From the NCBI GenBank assembly GCA_018712245.1, contig DVHE01000058.1, forward strand, positions 1 to 64,000: a DNA stretch of 64,000 nt, in the 5' to 3' direction. The notes under the pieces are model-generated. The model was not told the DNA's origin, did not search any database, and was given only the letters and a program-made list of their open reading frames with translations. Position numbers and translations under genes: made by a program. Shown one piece after another: positions 1 to 28,668 of this stretch. Position 1 is the stretch's first letter. Each line of letters opens with the position of its first letter. This DNA comes from Candidatus Avoscillospira avicola. GTDB lineage: Bacteria; Bacillota; Clostridia; Oscillospirales; Oscillospiraceae.

Positions 1-92
1 GCCTGGGTCTGGTTTGGTGCGTCCATTTTAGACATATATGCGCAGATTTTTCTGTAATTTCCGTTATTTTAGCCGTCCCAGGCAGAAGAAAA

Positions 93-124
93 CCCGTCGC
101 AGAATTTTCCTATTCTGCGACGGG
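93..124 (-). terminator. Intrinsic terminator of the symporter gene
   Basis: Perfect 12-bp stem (arms 93-104 and 113-124, loop of 8). On the minus strand it is followed by a T-rich stretch. It lies 26 bp past the stop of the symporter gene. Bases 1-92 show no supported feature. Confidence 0.85.
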
Positions 125-149
125 CCCTTTCTGTGCTTGGAAACTGCGA

Positions 150-1382
150 TCACTTGGCGGCTTTGGCCTTCTTCTTGGCTTCCCAGTTGGTGACGCAGAC
201 GGAGCAGGCGATGTCGCCGGTGACGTTGAGGCAGGTGCGGCCCATGTCGAAGAGCCGGTCCACCGCGACGATCAGGCCGATGTAGGACACCGGTACGCCG
301 ATGGCTTCCAGCACCATGGCCAGCATGATCATGCCCGCGCCGGAGACGCCGGCGGTGCCGATGGAGGCCAGGGTGGCGGTGACGACGACCATGACCATCT
401 GGCCGAGGGTCAGGTCCATACCGGCGCAGCTGGCCAGGAAGACCGTGGCCACGCACTGGTAGATGGCGGTGCCGTCCATGTTGATGGTGGAGCCCAGGGG
501 CAGGACGAAGGAAGCAACGTCCTTGTCGGCGCCCATTTCATCAGCGCACTCCTTGGAGACTGGCAGGGTAGCGGCAGAGGAGGTGGAGGTGAAGGCGAAG
601 ATCATGGCCGGAGAGGCCAGGCGGAAAAACTTCAGGGGGCTGATCTTGCCGAAGACCTTGGCGGAGAAGGAGTAGATCACCACGGCGTGGACGATGTAGC
701 CGACGTAGGCGCACAGCAGCACCAAGGCCAGAGAGCCGAGGATCTCGGCGCCCTGGGTGGCCACCACCCAGGACATATAGGTGAATACGCCGATGGGAGC
801 CAGGGAGATGACGAACATCATCAGCTTCTCGATGACGGAGTAGAAGGAGCTTACAATGTCGCGGCAGAGGCGGGCTTTTTCGCCGGCTGCCAGGATGGCG
901 CCGCCAAAGAACAGGGCGATGACGATGACCTGGAGCATGTTGGCTGTGGAGAAGGATTGCCACATATTGCTGGGGAAGATGCTGACCAGGGTGGACATGA
1001 AGCCGCCGAACTCACTGGCAGTGTATTCCTGCTCGGAGCCGTCGAGGATGGGGAACAGGCCGGCGCCCTTGAAGATATTGGCAAACACCAAGCCGATGAC
1101 GCAGGCGATGGCGGTCGTCACCAGGAAGTACAGCACGGTCTTGACGCCCACAGAGCCGACCTTTTTCATGTCGTCCATGGAGAGGATGCCGTCGATCATG
1201 GAGAAGAGAACCACAGGCACCACGATGAACTTCAGAAGGTTGACGAAAATGTCGCCAAAGGGCTTGAGGTAGTCTTCGGTAAAGCCCTCCCACTTGGCAA
1301 AGTAGCAGACCAGACCGACGACAATACCGGCAATCAGCGCGATGAGGATTTGAATGGGGAGACTCAATTTCTTTTTCTTCAT
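150..1382 (-). CDS. Dicarboxylate/amino acid:cation symporter (DAACS family)
   Basis: A 410-residue polytopic membrane protein of the DAACS (GltP/SstT/DctA) family, which imports acidic amino acids or C4-dicarboxylates with Na+ or H+. Seen: the serine-rich hairpin TSTSSAATLP, the NMDGTAIYQ cation-site motif, the GTAGVSGAG second hairpin, and FDMGRTCLNVTGD. In that last motif the Arg corresponds to the arginine that selects acidic substrates in archaeal GltPh, so aspartate, glutamate or a dicarboxylate is the likely substrate (inference). The ATG at 1382 is chosen because GAGGTG lies 8 bases upstream and the protein then opens with a lysine-rich cytosolic tail; a further in-frame start upstream at 1451 lacks a ribosome site. 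Monocistronic, with its own promoter and terminator. Confidence 0.93.
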   Translation of the reverse strand: MKKKKLSLPIQILIALIAGIVVGLVCYFAKWEGFTEDYLKPFGDIFVNLLKFIVVPVVLFSMIDGILSMDDMKKVGSVGVKTVLYFLVTTAIACVIGLVFANIFKGAGLFPILDGSEQEYTASEFGGFMSTLVSIFPSNMWQSFSTANMLQVIVIALFFGGAILAAGEKARLCRDIVSSFYSVIEKLMMFVISLAPIGVFTYMSWVVATQGAEILGSLALVLLCAYVGYIVHAVVIYSFSAKVFGKISPLKFFRLASPAMIFAFTSTSSAATLPVSKECADEMGADKDVASFVLPLGSTINMDGTAIYQCVATVFLASCAGMDLTLGQMVMVVVTATLASIGTAGVSGAGMIMLAMVLEAIGVPVSYIGLIVAVDRLFDMGRTCLNVTGDIACSVCVTNWEAKKKAKAAK

Positions 1383-20845: not shown

Positions 20846-21820
20846 ATGAAAAAGATTCTTGCGCTGATGCTGGCGCTGACGCTGGTGCTGGGCCTGGCTG
20901 CCTGCGCCGGAAACAACGACCAGAGCGAAACCAATCAGACCGAAACCAACCAGACGGAAGATACCGCCGCGCCCGAGACCGGCGATGAAACCGCTGCCGA
21001 CGCTGAGACCGACGCCGAGACGGAAGGCGACACTGCCGCTGCCATGTCCGGCCCCATCACCGTCATCTCCCGTGAAGAGGGCTCCGGCACTCGCGGCGCC
21101 TTTGTGGAGCTGATGGGTGTGGAGACCGACGAGGGCGACATGACCACCGTGGACGCTGAGATCGCCAACTCCACCTCTCTGGTGCAGAGCACTGTGGCCG
21201 GCAACTCCAACGCCATCGGCTACATCTCCCTGGGCTCCTATGATGCTTCCGCTGTCAAGGCTGTGAAGGTGGACGGCGTGGAAGTCAGCGTGGACACCAT
21301 CAAGGCCGGTGACTATGCCGTCTCCCGTCCCTTCGTGGTCTGCTACAAGGAAGAGAACCTCAGCGAGCTGGGCAAAGACTTCGTAAGCTATATCATGAGC
21401 GCCGAGGGCCAGGCGATCCTCAGCGAAGAGGGCTACATCGCTGCCGATGACGCCGCCGAGAGCTACACCGCCGCCGGCCTCTCCGGAAACCTGAGCATCA
21501 ACGGCTCCACCTCCGTGGGCCCTGTGATGGAAGTCCTGGCCGAGGCCTATAAGGCCCTGAACCCCGATGTGGTCATCGACGTCCAGCAGACCGGCTCCGG
21601 CACCGGCATCACCTCCGCCATCGACGGCTCCTGCGAGATCGGCATGAGTTCCCGCGCCCTGAAGGACGAGGAAATTGCTGAGGGCCTGGTCCCCGTGACC
21701 ATCGCCCTGGACGGCATCGCCGTGATTGTCAATCAGCAGAACCCGGTGGAGGACCTGACCTCCGAGCAGATCCAGAAGATCTACATCGGTGAGATCACCG
21801 ACTGGAGCCAGCTGGGATAA
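20846..21820 (+). CDS. pstS: Phosphate ABC transporter substrate-binding lipoprotein, circularly permuted
   Basis: 324 residues. Lipoprotein signal with Cys20 (LAAC), acidic linker to about residue 68, then a phosphate-binding fold in permuted order. The block usually found in the second half (ISREEGSGTRGAF...GYISLG) comes first. The usual first half (INGSTSVGPVMEVL...QTGSGTG...GMSSRALKDEE...ALDGIAVIVN) comes second, and the protein stops right after GEITDWSQLG, exactly where the standard protein would continue into the REEGSGTR block. All phosphate-contact motifs are present. It heads the pst operon; ribosome site AAGGAGA. Confidence 0.94.
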   Translation: MKKILALMLALTLVLGLAACAGNNDQSETNQTETNQTEDTAAPETGDETAADAETDAETEGDTAAAMSGPITVISREEGSGTRGAFVELMGVETDEGDMTTVDAEIANSTSLVQSTVAGNSNAIGYISLGSYDASAVKAVKVDGVEVSVDTIKAGDYAVSRPFVVCYKEENLSELGKDFVSYIMSAEGQAILSEEGYIAADDAAESYTAAGLSGNLSINGSTSVGPVMEVLAEAYKALNPDVVIDVQQTGSGTGITSAIDGSCEIGMSSRALKDEEIAEGLVPVTIALDGIAVIVNQQNPVEDLTSEQIQKIYIGEITDWSQLG

Positions 21821-21973: not shown

Positions 21974-22822
21974 ATGGCCAAATTCAAGGAAACCGCCATG
22001 CACTATGTGTTTTTACTGACCGCGTGTGTATCCATCGCGGCGGTGGCGGTCATCTGCGTGTATCTGCTGGCCAACGGTATCCCCACCATCGCCGAAATCG
22101 GCCTGGGGAACTTCTTCGGCCTCACCTGGAAGCCCAGCCAGAATCTCTACGGTATCGTCCCCTTCATCGTCGGCTCCATCTATGTCACCGCCGGCGCCAT
22201 CATCGTGGGCGTGCCGGTGGGCATCCTCTGTGCGGTGTTCCTGGCCCGGTTTTGCCCCCGGCGGCTCTACCAGGTTTTAAACCCCGCTGTGCGGCTGATG
22301 GCCGGCATCCCCTCCATCGTCTACGGCTTCTTCGGCCTGATGGTCATCGTTCCGGTGGTGCAGCAGCTGACCGGTACCTCCGGCAAGGGCCTGCTGACGG
22401 CCTCACTGCTGCTGGGTATTATGATCCTGCCCACCATCATCGGCACCGCCGAGCCCGCCCTGCGGGCCGTGCCCCAGAGCTACTATGAGGGCGCCCTGGC
22501 CCTGGGCGCCACCCACGAGCGCAGCACCTTTACCGCCGTCCTCCCCGCCGCCGCCTCGGGCGTCATGTCCGGCGTGATTTTGGGCGTGGGCCGGGCCATC
22601 GGCGAGACCATGGCCGTCATTATGATCGCCGGCAACCAAGCCCGGATGCCCGGCGGCCTGCTGGATGGCCTGCGGACCATGACCAGCAACATCGTGCTGG
22701 AGATGGGCTATTCCACCGGCCTCCACCGCCAGGCGCTGATCGCCACCGGCGTGGTGCTGTTTGTGTTCATTCTGATCATCAACACCTGCTTTTCCCTGAT
22801 GAAACGGAGGAGTGAGACATGA
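21974..22822 (+). CDS. pstC: Phosphate ABC transporter permease PstC
   Basis: 282 residues with about six membrane helices. The permease signature includes GIPSIVYGFFGL and the cytosolic EGALALGATHERSTFTAVLP loop, equivalent to the EAA motif that contacts PstB; the conserved GRAIGETMAV follows. ATG at 21974 has AAAGGAG upstream; a longer frame starting near 21854 runs through the hairpin region and is not used. It overlaps pstA by 4 bp (ATGA). Confidence 0.96.
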   Translation: MAKFKETAMHYVFLLTACVSIAAVAVICVYLLANGIPTIAEIGLGNFFGLTWKPSQNLYGIVPFIVGSIYVTAGAIIVGVPVGILCAVFLARFCPRRLYQVLNPAVRLMAGIPSIVYGFFGLMVIVPVVQQLTGTSGKGLLTASLLLGIMILPTIIGTAEPALRAVPQSYYEGALALGATHERSTFTAVLPAAASGVMSGVILGVGRAIGETMAVIMIAGNQARMPGGLLDGLRTMTSNIVLEMGYSTGLHRQALIATGVVLFVFILIINTCFSLMKRRSET

Positions 22823-23772
22823 GAAGCAGCAATCCTGCCCAGCCCTTTCCCGCCAATGCTTCCGGAAATGCCAGGACCGCTTCAGAGATCATGGCCCGGG
22901 CCAGAGGCCAGCGCTACTACTCATGGGTTTTGAAGATTTTGGTCTGGCTGGCTGCCTTGCTGACCGCGGGCGTCATCCTGCTGATGGTGGGCTATATCCT
23001 GGTGACGGGCGTGCCCAATCTGACGCTGGACCTCTTCGCCTGGACCTTCACCACCGACAATCAGTCCATGATGCCGGCATTGGTGAATACCGTGGTGATG
23101 ACGCTTCTGACGCTTTTGATCGCCGTCCCCATCGGCGTGGGCGCCGCCATCTATATGGTGGAGTATGCCAAGCGGGGCAATAAGCTGGTCAAGCTGGTGC
23201 GGCTGACCGCTGAGACCCTCTCGGGTATCCCCTCCATCGTCTACGGCCTCTTCGGCATGATGCTCTTCAACATCGCCTTCGGCTGGAGCTATTCCATGCT
23301 GGCGGGCATCTGCACCCTGGCCATTATGATCCTGCCCCTGATCCTCCGCACCACGGAGGAAGCACTGATCTCCGTGCCGGACAGCTACCGCGAGGGCTCC
23401 TTCGGCCTGGGCGCCGGCAAGCTCCGGACGGTGTTCAAGGTCATTTTGCCTCCCGCCATGCCGGGCGTCCTTTCGGGCATCATCCTGGCCATCGGGCGCA
23501 TCGTCGGCGAGAGCGCCGCGCTGATCTTCACCTCCGGCTCCGGCAAGGACAACCTGATGCTGGGCAAGACCGGCAACTTCTTCGCCGACCTCTTCGCGCC
23601 GCTGTTCCAGTCCACCCGGACGCTGTCGGTGCATATGTATAACCTGATGAGCGAAGGCCTCCATATGGAAGAGGCCCAGGCCACCGCCGTGGTGCTGCTG
23701 GTGCTGGTCATCGCCATCAACGCCGGTTCCGCCCACCTGGCCAAAAAGCTCACCGCCAACGGCCAGGGTTAA
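22819..23772 (+). CDS. pstA: Phosphate ABC transporter permease PstA
   Basis: 317 residues, six predicted helices, N-terminal extension of about 35 hydrophilic residues. Contains LSGIPSIVYGLFG, the EAA-type loop REGSFGLGAGKLRTVFKVILP and GRIVGESAALIFTSG, all typical for PstA. It forms the channel with PstC. The start overlaps the pstC stop. A BIME-like repeat fills the space before pstB. Confidence 0.96.
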   Translation: MRSSNPAQPFPANASGNARTASEIMARARGQRYYSWVLKILVWLAALLTAGVILLMVGYILVTGVPNLTLDLFAWTFTTDNQSMMPALVNTVVMTLLTLLIAVPIGVGAAIYMVEYAKRGNKLVKLVRLTAETLSGIPSIVYGLFGMMLFNIAFGWSYSMLAGICTLAIMILPLILRTTEEALISVPDSYREGSFGLGAGKLRTVFKVILPPAMPGVLSGIILAIGRIVGESAALIFTSGSGKDNLMLGKTGNFFADLFAPLFQSTRTLSVHMYNLMSEGLHMEEAQATAVVLLVLVIAINAGSAHLAKKLTANGQG

Positions 23773-23936: not shown

Positions 23937-24686
23937 ATGAACAAGATTACCGTTACCGATTTGAACCTCTATTACGGCCAGTTCCACGCCCTCAAGGGCA
24001 TCAACCTGGCCTTTCCCGCCCGGGAGATCACGGCCCTGATCGGCCCCTCGGGCTGCGGCAAATCCACCCTTCTGAAGACCCTCAACCGCATGAACGACCT
24101 GGTGGAGGGCTGCCGGATCACCGGCTCGGTGAAGCTGGATGACCAGGAAATCTACGGCGGCATGGACGTCAATACCCTCCGCAAGCGGGTGGGCATGGTG
24201 TTCCAGAAGCCCAATCCCTTCCCCATGAGCATTTACGACAACATCGCCTACGGCCCCCGGACCCACGGCGTCCGCTCCCGAGTGATGCTGGACGAGATCG
24301 TGGAGCGGAGCCTCACCCAGGCTGCCATCTGGGACGAGGTCAAGGACCGGCTCAAAAAGAGTGCCCTGGGCCTCTCCGGCGGCCAGCAGCAGCGGCTGTG
24401 CATCGCCCGCGCCCTGGCCGTGGAACCGGAGGTGCTGTTGATGGACGAGAGTACCTCGGCTCTGGACCCCATCTCCACCGGTAAGATCGAGGAGCTGGCC
24501 ATGGAGCTGAAAAAGCAGTACACCATTATCACCGTCACCCACAATATGCAGCAGGCGGCCCGGATCTCCGACAACACCGCCTTCTTCCTGCTGGGCGACA
24601 TGGTGGAGTACGGCAAGACGGAACAGATTTTCTCCTTCCCCCAGGACAAGCGGACGGAGGACTACATCACCGGGAGGTTTGGATAA
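23937..24686 (+). CDS. pstB: Phosphate ABC transporter ATP-binding protein PstB
   Basis: 249 residues. Walker [10 protein letters not shown] (Lys42), the PstB-specific LNRMNDLV and [14 protein letters not shown], signature LSGGQQQR, Walker [14 protein letters not shown], switch [12 protein letters not shown] at 23937 after AAAGGAG. The phoU start codon shares a base with the pstB stop (TAATG). Confidence 0.97.
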
Positions 24687-25363
24687 TGCGCACACAATTC
24701 GACCAGCAGCTGGGCAAGCTCAATGTGGAACTCATCACCATGGGCGCCCTCTGCGAAGAGGCCATCGGCTTGGTGGCCGCCGCCCTGACCCGGGGCGACA
24801 CCGTCCACTCCCAGGAGATCAGCTCTCTGGAGGTGCGGATCGACCACAAGGAGCGGGACATCGAGAGCCTTTGCATGAAGCTCCTCTTGCAGCAGCAGCC
24901 GGTGGCCGGCGACCTGCGGGTGATTTCCTCGGCGCTGAAGATGATTTCCGACATGGAGCGCATCGGCGACCAGGCCGCCGACATCGCGGAGACGCTCCAG
25001 TATATCACCGACACCGAAGCCGAGAGCAAGAGCCACATCGCGGAAATGGCCGCAGCGGCGGGCCGCATGGTGACGGACGCTGTCAGCGCCTTTGTCGGCA
25101 AGGACCTTCACCAGGCCCAGGCTGTCGTGGCCTACGATGACCGGGTGGACGCCCTTTTCACCCAGGTGAAGTCGGAGCTGACGGCCATGATTCTGGAAAA
25201 TCCCCAGAATGGAGAAAATTGTCTTGACCTTTTGATGATTGCCAAGTATTTTGAACGTATCGGCGATCACGCCGTCAATATTGCCGAGTGGGTGATGTTC
25301 TCCATCACCGGGCGGCATGTGGAGGCGCAAGACAATGCAGAAACGGATCGCAGCGATCCATGA
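24686..25363 (+). CDS. phoU: Phosphate signalling regulator PhoU
   Basis: 225 residues, all-helical, two PhoU repeats each with the metal-binding E/DxxxD pattern (MISDMERIGDQAADIAE and IAKYFERIGDHAVNIAE). It links Pst transport state to the PhoR kinase. Start overlaps the pstB stop by one base; the end overlaps the following kinase gene by 29 bp. Confidence 0.96.
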   Translation: MRTQFDQQLGKLNVELITMGALCEEAIGLVAAALTRGDTVHSQEISSLEVRIDHKERDIESLCMKLLLQQQPVAGDLRVISSALKMISDMERIGDQAADIAETLQYITDTEAESKSHIAEMAAAAGRMVTDAVSAFVGKDLHQAQAVVAYDDRVDALFTQVKSELTAMILENPQNGENCLDLLMIAKYFERIGDHAVNIAEWVMFSITGRHVEAQDNAETDRSDP

Positions 25364-26216
25364 TTTATCCTGTTTAGGGAAGTGTTCCCTTTCGGTGGTG
25401 CTGCCGGTACTCTCCGCCCTGGGGGCGGAGTGCGTAGCGCTGCCCACGGCCCTGCTGCCGGCCCACTTCGCAGCGCTCCCCGGCGTGGAGGCCCGGCCTC
25501 TGACCGGAGAGATGGAGGAGATTCTAAGCGCCTGGATTCGCGGCGGCGTCACGTTTGACGGCGTCTTCTCCGGATACCTGGCTGGGCCGGAACAGTGCGG
25601 CCTGGTGCTGGAGCTGGCGGAGCGGACGCTGCCGTCGGGTCTCTTGGCGGTGGACCCGGCCATGGCGGACCGGGGCAGGCTGTACCACGGCTACGACCAC
25701 CGCCATGTGGAGGCCATGGGGGCTCTTTGCCGCCGGGCCGATGTGATCGTGCCCAATCTGACAGAAAGCGCCCTGCTGCTGGGGGAGGAGCCCCGGCTGG
25801 AGGGCTGGACCCGGCCGGAGCTGGAGGCGCTGCTGCGGCGCCTTGGGCAGCTGGGCCCCAGCCGGGTGGCCGTCACCGGCGTTGCGCTGGAGGTGGGGAA
25901 GGTGGCCGTGGCCTGCCTGGACGGGACGGAGACGGCGATCTTCCAGCAGCCGCTGGTGCCGGGACATTATAACGGCGCCGGCGACCTCTTTGCCAGTGTC
26001 GTCACCGGCGCCATGGTGCAGCAGGGGCGGGACTTCTTCTCCGCCGTGTCCCGGGCCATGGCCTTTACCAGCGCCGTGGTGGCTGCCACGGCCCAAAACC
26101 CCTGCCACCGGCCCTATGGGCTGGACTTTGAACCGTGCCTGCCCCGGCTGCTGGAAGCGCTGCGCCGGGATGGGCGGGAAAGGAGCGACACCGTTGATCT
26201 ACGTACTGGAGGATGA
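25335..26216 (+). CDS. Pyridoxal/pyridoxamine kinase-like protein (PfkB/ribokinase fold)
   Basis: 293 residues. N-terminal AAIHDLSCLGKCSLSVVLPVLSALG and the central DPAMADRGRLYHGY and PNLTESALLLGEE match PdxY/PdxK-type kinases that phosphorylate B6 vitamers; the nucleotide-site GHYNGAGDLFASVVTG includes the anion-hole GAGD with the catalytic Asp. The ATG at 25335 lies inside phoU and the stop lies 23 bp inside phoP, so it is built into the phosphate operon by overlaps on both sides. A B6 salvage gene here is unusual; it would draw on PLP chemistry when phosphate is limiting (speculative). Confidence 0.87.
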   Translation: MQKRIAAIHDLSCLGKCSLSVVLPVLSALGAECVALPTALLPAHFAALPGVEARPLTGEMEEILSAWIRGGVTFDGVFSGYLAGPEQCGLVLELAERTLPSGLLAVDPAMADRGRLYHGYDHRHVEAMGALCRRADVIVPNLTESALLLGEEPRLEGWTRPELEALLRRLGQLGPSRVAVTGVALEVGKVAVACLDGTETAIFQQPLVPGHYNGAGDLFASVVTGAMVQQGRDFFSAVSRAMAFTSAVVAATAQNPCHRPYGLDFEPCLPRLLEALRRDGRERSDTVDLRTGG

Positions 26217-26865
26217 CGACAACATCCGCAAGCTGATACTCTATACCCTCCGCACCAGCGGCTTCGAGGCCGAGGGCTTTGACCGCCCCAGCGCGTTTTA
26301 TAAGGCCATGGCCCAAACGCTGCCCCGGCTGCTGCTGTTGGACATCATGCTCCCCGAGGAGGACGGGTTGACGGTGCTGGGCAAGCTCCGCCGCGGGCCG
26401 GAGACGGCCGGCCTCCCGGTCATTTTGCTCACGGCCAAGGGCAGCGAGTACGACAAGGTCATCGGCCTGGATTCCGGCGCCGACGACTATCTGCCCAAGC
26501 CCTTCGGCATGATGGAGCTGGTGTCCCGGATCAAGGCGGTGCTGCGCCGCACCGAGCCGGCAGCCCAGGAGGAGTACCGGGTGGGCTCGCTCTACGTCTG
26601 CCCGGCCCGGCACATCGTCCGCGCCGGGGATCAGGAGGTACATCTGGCATTGAAGGAGTTTGAGCTTCTTTGTATGCTGCTGCGCTCCGCCGGCGTGGTG
26701 CTGACCCGGGACGCGCTGCTCAACCAGATCTGGGGCTACAGCTTTGACGGCGAGAGCCGCACCGTGGACGTCCACATCCGCAATCTCCGCAAGAAGCTGG
26801 GCGAGGCGGGCAACTGCATCGAAACCGTCAAGGGCGTGGGCTACAAGGCCAATCTGGGCGTATAA
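26194..26865 (+). CDS. phoP: PhoP/PhoB-type response regulator
   Basis: 223 residues: receiver domain with acidic pocket Glu6-Asp7-Asp8, phosphoacceptor Asp50 (LLLDIMLP) and the conserved Lys in LPKPFG, then an OmpR-type winged helix (VLTRDALLNQIWGYSF, RTVDVHIRNLRKKLG). TTG start at 26194 is chosen because AGGAG stands 8 bases upstream and the protein then opens with IYVLEDDD. Forms a pair with the kinase downstream and presumably binds the boxes at 20.73-20.78 kb. Confidence 0.93.
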   Translation: MIYVLEDDDNIRKLILYTLRTSGFEAEGFDRPSAFYKAMAQTLPRLLLLDIMLPEEDGLTVLGKLRRGPETAGLPVILLTAKGSEYDKVIGLDSGADDYLPKPFGMMELVSRIKAVLRRTEPAAQEEYRVGSLYVCPARHIVRAGDQEVHLALKEFELLCMLLRSAGVVLTRDALLNQIWGYSFDGESRTVDVHIRNLRKKLGEAGNCIETVKGVGYKANLGV

Positions 26866-27003
26866 CGCAATACCCTGTTGTTGCGGCGGAGCCGCAGGGG
26901 CCGCGCAGGCGTCCCCAAGGAGTTTTCTACCGCATTTCGCCGGATTTCCACGGCTTTCCCCGGGGAAACCGCCGGAGTGCCCATTAAATCGGAGGCGCAT
27001 GAC

Positions 27004-28668
27004 ATGGCGAAACGAATTTTTCAGGCGGTCTGCCTGGTGGCGGCGCTGGTGCTGGTGCTGGGCTCCGCGGTTATCATGGCACTCTTTTATGATAACTTTG
27101 TGGACCGCACCGAGCAGGCGCTGCGGGCCGAGACGGCCTATGTGGCCCAGGGACTCAACACCGGCGGCGAATCTTACCTCACCGGCCTCCGGGAAAAGAG
27201 CCGCCGCATCACACTGGTAGATGGCGACGGCACGGTGGTCTACGACAACTCCGCCGACGCCGCGCAGATGGAAAACCATCTGGATCGGGAGGAGATCCAG
27301 GAGGCGCTGGAGACCGGAAGCGGCGAATCCCGCCGGGTGAGCGAGACCCTCTCGCAGGAGACTTTTTATTACGCGGTACGGCTGGAAAACGGCATGGTGC
27401 TGCGGCTGGCTGTGACCCAAAGCTCCATCTGGGCGCTGCTTTTGGCGGTCTCACAGCCGGCGGCGGTGGTGGTCATCGCCGCGCTGATTTTGGGCATCTT
27501 CCTGGCCAATCGGGTGGCCAAGCGCATCGTGTCGCCCATCAACCAGCTGGACCTGGACGACCCGGGCAAGAACCAGAGCTATGAGGAGCTCACGCCGCTG
27601 CTCAGCAAGATTGCCCGGCAGAAGCGCACCATCGAGGCCCAGCTCCAGCAGGCCCGGCGCAACCAGGAAGAGTTTTTGCTGATTACGGAGAATATGTCCG
27701 AGGGCCTGCTGGTCATCGACGCCCAGACCAATCTCCTGAGCTGCAACGGCGCCGCGCTGCGGCTCCTGGGGGCGGAGAAGCAGCCGGACAATCCCAGCGT
27801 CCTGGCCCTCAACCACGCCGAGGCCTTCCGGGCAGTGATCCGGGAAGCCCTGGCGGGACGCCACGGCGAGGGCAGGCTGGAGGTGGGCGGCAGAACGCTC
27901 CAGCTGCTGGCCAACCCGGTACAGCAGGACGGCGAAGCCGCCGGCGCTGTAATTCTGGCCATGGACATCACCGAGCGGGAACAGCGGGAGACCCTCCGGC
28001 GGGAGTTCTCCGCCAACGTCTCCCACGAGCTGAAAACGCCCCTGACCTCCATCTCCGGCTTTGCCGAGCTGATGAAGTCCGGCGTGGTGGCCCCCAAGGA
28101 TGTGACGGACTTCTCCCAGAGCATCTACGACGAGGCCCAGCGGCTCATTCAGATGGTGGAGGACATCATCCGCCTCTCGGAGCTGGATGAGCAGGAGATC
28201 ACCCGGGAGACCGGCCCCATCGATCTCTACGCCTTCTGCGAGAAGGAGGTGGCCCGGATGGCCCCCGAGGCCGCCCGGCGGCAGGTGTCCCTGACGCTTC
28301 AGGGCGAGTCGGCTCAGATCACCGGTAATCCCCAGATCCTAGACGAGCTGGTCTACAACCTGTTGGACAACGCCATCAAGTACAATCGCCCCGGCGGCAG
28401 CGTCACCGTGGCGGTGACGCCCGGCAAGCGGGTGCGGCTGCGGGTGACGGACACCGGAATCGGCATCCCCCGGGAGAGCCAGAGCCGCGTCTTTGAGCGG
28501 TTCTATCGGGCGGACAAGAGCCACTCCAGCGACGTCTCCGGCACGGGGCTGGGCCTCTCCATCGTCAAGCACGCGGCCCGGTTCCACCAGGCCCGGGTCG
28601 AACTGCAAAGCACCGAGGGGAAGGGCACCACGGTCACCGTGACCTTCCCGGCGGAAGACGTAATCTGA
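27004..28668 (+). CDS. phoR: PhoR-type sensor histidine kinase
   Basis: 554 residues: TM1 about 9-28, extracytoplasmic sensor about 30-145, TM2 about 148-170, HAMP-like linker, PAS domain about 225-320, HisKA with phosphorylated His341 (NVSHELKTPL), and HATPase with N-box (NLLDNAIKYN), DTGIGIP and GTGLGLSI. Typical PhoR layout. ATG at 27004 has GGAGG 8 bases upstream; about 40 further upstream in-frame codons lack a signal. Ends at a strong terminator. Confidence 0.94.
   Translation: MAKRIFQAVCLVAALVLVLGSAVIMALFYDNFVDRTEQALRAETAYVAQGLNTGGESYLTGLREKSRRITLVDGDGTVVYDNSADAAQMENHLDREEIQEALETGSGESRRVSETLSQETFYYAVRLENGMVLRLAVTQSSIWALLLAVSQPAAVVVIAALILGIFLANRVAKRIVSPINQLDLDDPGKNQSYEELTPLLSKIARQKRTIEAQLQQARRNQEEFLLITENMSEGLLVIDAQTNLLSCNGAALRLLGAEKQPDNPSVLALNHAEAFRAVIREALAGRHGEGRLEVGGRTLQLLANPVQQDGEAAGAVILAMDITEREQRETLRREFSANVSHELKTPLTSISGFAELMKSGVVAPKDVTDFSQSIYDEAQRLIQMVEDIIRLSELDEQEITRETGPIDLYAFCEKEVARMAPEAARRQVSLTLQGESAQITGNPQILDELVYNLLDNAIKYNRPGGSVTVAVTPGKRVRLRVTDTGIGIPRESQSRVFERFYRADKSHSSDVSGTGLGLSIVKHAARFHQARVELQSTEGKGTTVTVTFPAEDVI

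Follow-up and report, generated by a model that had tools for sequence, protein, structure and literature searches.

A circularly permuted PstS of the pneumococcal PstS2 type heads a pstSCAB–phoU set in Candidatus Avoscillospira avicola

The open reading frame at positions 20846–21820 (+ strand, 324 aa) of a 64,000-nucleotide stretch of DNA from the gut bacterium Candidatus Avoscillospira avicola, referred to here as the window, carries the sequence motifs of the phosphate-binding protein PstS in an unusual succession, which raises the question of whether it codes for one complete domain with exchanged halves, and of how such a protein arose and what it does. REEGSGTR (residues 76–83) and GYISLG (125–130) come first, followed by SRPF and EGQAIL..GYI ahead of a junction, while GSTSVGPV (220–227), GSGTG (250–254), GMSSR (266–270), and DGIAVIVN (289–296) make up the second half; the motifs quoted in the sequence-only reading are all matched. 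The chain ends with GEITDWSQLG (315–324), which includes the last residue. The canonical order, with the GSTSV part before the SGTR part, is absent.

The profile matches fall in families of phosphate-binding and type II binding proteins. TIGR02136 is matched at 213.9 bits (cut-off 206.6) in two exchanged stretches and PF12849 (PBP_like_2) at 137.7 bits (cut-off 27), also in two stretches; since the protein passes TIGR02136 but has the exchanged order, it was classed as a permuted PstS. When compared with PDB sequences by phmmer, the canonical proteins 4q8r, 4gd5, 1twy, and 4exl all align as two exchanged stretches. For 4q8r these score 113–114 bits each, window residues 214–324 falling on chain residues 4–114 and window residues 69–198 on 118–243. 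In contrast, 4h1x, the pneumococcal PstS 2, aligns as a single stretch, window 65–323 on 5–264, with 217 bits. As a sequence signal, the exchange of the halves is far beyond chance. The permuted order claimed in the sequence-only reading is therefore borne out, and so is its placing of the C-terminus where canonical PstS proceeds to the first block: in the 4q8r alignment the window chain stops three residues short of that continuation. The parts of the protein and the genes downstream of it are the following:

20846–20905, + strand: signal peptide and lipobox (LAAC, Cys20) of the permuted PstS, read from the sequence
20906–21043, + strand: acidic low-complexity tether, residues 21–66, read from the sequence; pLDDT block means 48–53 up to residue 60
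21044–21322, + strand: putative first part of lobe II, residues 67–159, carrying the REEGSGTR phosphate loop and corresponding to the middle of canonical PstS (phmmer, fold match; boundary transferred from PhoX)
21323–21445, + strand: putative lobe I, canonical C-terminal strand and helices, residues 160–200 (phmmer, model; mapped from PhoX)
21446–21484, + strand: junction linker bridging the former C- and N-termini, about residues 200–213 (linker survey of permuted proteins)
21485–21709, + strand: lobe I, canonical N-terminal part, residues 214–288, with GSTSVGPV, GSGTG, and GMSSR (phmmer, model, pocket alignment)
21710–21820, + strand: putative hinge strand and second part of lobe II, residues 289–324, new C-terminus, and stop (phmmer, model; mapped from PhoX)
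21974–22822, + strand: pstC permease, PF00528 at 4.4e-18 (searched from 21980; ATG at 21974 taken from the sequence)
22819–23772, + strand: pstA permease, PF00528 at 8.6e-21
23937–24686, + strand: pstB ATPase, PF00005 at 2.1e-31
24686–25363, + strand: phoU, PF01895 at 2e-44, two stretches
25335–26216: pyridoxamine-kinase-like gene, between phoU and the PhoB/PnpS-like pair
26194–26865, + strand: PhoB-like response regulator, TIGR02154 at 206.9 bits, under the curated cut-off of 296.2
26878–28668, + strand: PnpS/PhoR-like histidine kinase, NF046044 at 303.3 bits, under the curated cut-off of 400

The fold was predicted with AlphaFold2 from alignment A3, comprising the window protein and 71 relatives (72 rows), in which Cys20 is nearly invariant; a single-sequence model (pLDDT 32) was discarded. 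The mean pLDDT of the model is 87.9, with about 97 in the body and block means of 94–98 across residues 71–320. As modelled, the window PstS is one closed, complete two-lobed domain in permuted form, with no duplicated or incomplete domain in the structure check that the sequence-only reading had proposed. The whole-length match is to 4H1X (Foldseek, VIA-align 2: Z 36.5, rmsd 1.4 Å, 253 of 257 residues aligned, 47% identity), model residues 69–324 lying on chain residues 35–291 in identical chain order. The next PstS by the same procedure, 1twy (Z 12.2, 133 residues), matches in one piece only, as do 4gd5 and 4q8r (both Z 11.1, with 135 and 134 residues).

Domain I of Xanthomonas citri PhoX is delimited (PMC5439949) as residues 26–100, 252–265, and 277–340, domain II as 101–251, and the hinge strand as 93–108; for CpPstS, another paper (PMC12421899) gives an NTD of residues 24–111 and 279–324. 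By phmmer alignment, E. coli PstS residues 4–112 correspond to window residues 216–321. The offset between PhoX and E. coli residue numbers we take to be 24, from the pocket residues. With the PhoX boundaries so mapped, lobe I would consist of residues 160–288 and now be unbroken, and lobe II of residues 67–159 and 289–324 and now be split, while in canonical PstS the unbroken lobe is lobe II; both termini and the lipid anchor would have shifted from lobe I to lobe II. A linker of 14–15 residues would connect the former chain ends on lobe I, and the new opening would lie in a lobe II loop, flanked by the helix that terminates in GEITDW and by the strand running into REEGSGTR. Of 98 permuted proteins that were parsed, 89 have a junction linker of 14–15 residues, and all 98 have Y or F in it; the pneumococcal PstS2, like the window protein, has a short aromatic linker. 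At Tyr207 of the junction, 81% of 109 permuted rows have Tyr, and 98% of 43 canonical rows are gapped. The length of the tether from Cys to the first strand does not differ in its median (20 for 123 permuted ORFs vs. 19 for 46 canonical ones, with copies counted).

For the phosphate pocket, the same 109 permuted and 43 canonical rows were aligned in one register. S221 and S251 are conserved in 100% of both groups, S269 in 100% of the permuted and 98% of the canonical rows, R76 in 99 and 100%, S80 in 98 and 100%, G81 in 99 and 100%, and T82 in 99 and 98%, respectively; the earlier claim that all phosphate-binding motifs were kept agrees with this conservation of 98–100% among the permuted rows. 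Few positions distinguish the groups: 100% of the canonical proteins have Gly at position 250, where 72% of the permuted ones have Asp, the window protein having Gly. We take these positions to be the published phosphate contacts partly through E. coli numbering, with Asn201 of PhoX left without an assigned counterpart; at the place of window Ser269, E. coli PstS and PhoX presumably have, by mapping, an aspartate. As far as the model and the alignment go, the domain and pocket of the window PstS are those of canonical TIGR02136-type PstS. Its ligand is probably phosphate, which it should bind in the interlobe cleft and then pass to PstCA.

The permuted form is widespread, being found in Clostridia, Negativicutes, Erysipelotrichaceae, Streptococcus, Coriobacteriia, and on a Treponema plasmid, and nearly always heads pstCAB. 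In a junction-based scan, the best 80 of 567 candidates all carry the junction, 79 matching the whole junction query and one over residues 10–110. Among these 80 are Clostridia, Lachnospiraceae, Peptococcaceae, Acidaminococcaceae, and Erysipelotrichaceae (Traorella), Streptococcus ferus and S. penaeicida, and also Slackia, Gordonibacter, Parvibacter, Adlercreutzia, and Paraeggerthella. The window PstS is located in a pstSCAB–phoU set, and pstC, pstA, and pstB lie downstream of the permuted pstS in 67 of the same 80 loci; less than 4.5 kb of contig is left in 12 of the other 13. In the genome surveys, where a contiguous match was called permuted, a sample of 299 genomes spread over the phylum gave 11 permuted proteins from 10 genomes, 194 of the 299 having any match; a Streptococcus-centred sample of the phylum largely overlaps it and was not counted again. 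Permuted matches occur in 15 of 60 genomes of relatives and in 8 of 296 Actinomycetota, the centre genome included. Of eight genomes of the window's genus, five have the permuted form, one the canonical, and two no match; four genomes of the genus other than that of the window carry the junction at 78–95% identity. Both orders thus exist side by side, as the comparison of permuted with classical order suggested for Clostridia in the sequence-only reading revealed, and the permuted one recurs across Clostridia and beyond.

Among 15 genomes searched whole, the permuted form is the sole match at 1e-6 in 13, a threshold at which a distant canonical PstS could be missed; two streptococci have an extra canonical-type or half match (canonical in L150, one half recognised in L149). 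Permuted pstS with pstCAB–phoU is also found on plasmids, pTS2 of Treponema saccharophilum and plasmid 3 of Monoglobus pectinilyticus. The pTS2 gene (L200, 4905–5774) has by eye no clear lipobox, and its product may be untethered. Among viral contigs, 49 pattern matches included no relative of permuted PstS. In one genome of the window's genus (G301) the pst operon is canonical (L197), its PstS and PstC grouping with other families, which suggests operon exchange.

A divergent permuted subclade, represented by L046 (1405–2274), L014, L047, and L048 from genomes G313, G145, G339, and G333, differs in its motifs: SGTR is replaced by SGTK, and the SR after FGM by SE. L046 stays below the TIGR02136 cut-off (181 vs. 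206.6 bits), and in L196 an SGTK-type pstS leads pstC–pstA–pstB–phoU and a response regulator. Proteins of this subclade may bind another oxyanion.

As to the origin of the permutation, the 196 ORFs that were classified, of which 141 are permuted and 55 canonical (repeated copies of one locus included), show only these two orders, and no fused or doubled PstS intermediate was found among them, neither half being present twice. Doubled proteins hinted at by long open frames (G090/G461) were rejected as two separate tandem canonical genes. Tandem pairs of canonical pstS are present in L189 and L190 of the same phylum (in L190 the contig stops within the second copy), and a Eubacterium locus (L080) has two permuted pstS in tandem, at about 7524 and 8806; such pairs represent raw material for a duplication model. 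In a tree of PstC, a protein that was not rearranged, one branch separates the permuted operons from the canonical ones (63 vs. 34 rows, SH-aLRT 97), and a smaller tree groups them at 100/98 (22 vs. 30 rows). Some PstC alignment columns differ between the two groups, with no docking role read into them. This grouping, together with the common junction of 14–15 residues, makes a single ancient permutation, inherited with its partner permease, the best reading, although the PstC grouping alone is no proof of partner adaptation. Most likely the permutation would have arisen once, e.g., through a tandem duplication that was fused and trimmed, and thereafter moved with its own pstC lineage.

The trees of PstS itself are less clear, with one change and a weak SH-aLRT of 64 for 70 permuted vs. 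43 canonical rows, but two changes in a careful tree of 54 rows, in which a single permuted clade appears in 22% of bootstraps and the four SGTK rows stand apart from the other 19 permuted rows. This separation and the differing pocket motif would fit independent origins, at the same site, of the main clade and the SGTK subclade (L014, L046, L047, L048). We consider such a double origin unlikely, as one permuted clade is not rejected by the AU test (p-AU 0.53, the constrained tree being 0.45 log units higher), PstC unites all permuted operons, and the SGTK four share the cut and the aromatic linker; the weakness of the one-origin signal in PstS is due to the divergence of this subclade. A single origin is hence preferred.

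Still less probable is that the permuted PstS has become a sensor or a binder of another oxyanion and no longer belongs to a phosphate importer. The downstream PhoU and PhoB/PnpS-like pair, the additional presence of a canonical operon in some genomes (G030, G313), and the altered pocket of the SGTK subclade point that way, but the window protein retains the pocket residues and a complete pstCAB, no other site in its genome (a draft of 87 contigs, 84% complete) exceeds the PF12849 cut-off, the permuted form is the sole match in the 13 genomes mentioned, with the proviso on distant canonical PstS given there, and PMC4913102 presents the Pst2 system of the pneumococcus as a transporter of phosphate. 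The draft state of the genome and the existence of tandem canonical pstS pairs might also evoke an artefact of assembly or annotation, in which a metagenome contig had wrongly joined or collapsed two neighbouring canonical genes. The probability of this is negligible: the junction is present in all of the best 80 of 567 loci, including isolates, e.g., of Slackia, Gordonibacter, and Streptococcus, the permuted order recurs in complete plasmids and in the four further genomes of the genus, and it is seen in the crystal structure 4H1X. The artefact is refuted by the independent isolates and by that structure.

The closest known system is Streptococcus pneumoniae PstS2 (SP_2084, PDB 4H1X), which is like the window protein in its permuted order, fold, linker region, and pst–phoU operon; the two proteins are 47% identical, and the pneumococcus also has a canonical PstS1 operon, whereas the window draft genome has no second PstS above the cut-off. 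Canonical TIGR02136-type proteins (4q8r/4gd5 of Clostridium perfringens, 1twy of Vibrio cholerae) match strongly with each half and share the pocket motifs, but their halves are reversed and, by mapping, they end on lobe I and the window protein on lobe II. E. coli PstS (1ixh) and X. citri PhoX have the same two-lobed type II phosphate-binding fold in canonical order, with remote sequences. Another naturally permuted, tethered ABC binding protein is TpMglB-2 of Treponema pallidum (type Ic, cluster Bc), with Gram-positive gut relatives (PMC4990184); with its type I sugar-binding fold, it would differ from the window protein in opening site, an extra cross-over, and family, and its authors also raised tethering as a possible reason for the permutation. 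The arrangement itself is not new, 4H1X with the same permutation having been released in 2012, yet it seems largely unremarked: no paper describing PstS as permuted was found in searches of open-licence papers, and the accessible part of PMC4913102, which regards Pst1 and Pst2 of the pneumococcus as distinct in evolution, has no word that begins with 'permut'.

The open reading frame is thus very probably the phosphate-binding lipoprotein of a complete pstSCAB–phoU importer, in the permuted form solved in pneumococcal PstS2; it is real and presumably ordinary in function. Annotation is affected by the permutation: profile matches are split in two, L046 misses the TIGR02136 cut-off, and the two plasmid copies bear only the name 'substrate-binding domain-containing protein'. 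A more far-reaching proposal, which we put forward tentatively and regard as doubtful, is that a one-time permutation founded a separate Pst2-type importer class, that the shift of the anchor from lobe I to lobe II altered docking on PstC/PstA, and that partners have not been swapped with canonical operons since, during the spread across Bacillota and Coriobacteriia and into a Treponema plasmid. Because canonical and permuted forms coexist in one genus, this natural and common permutation of a textbook binding protein lends itself to testing what the site of the tether and the connectivity of the chain do to opening, closing, and docking.
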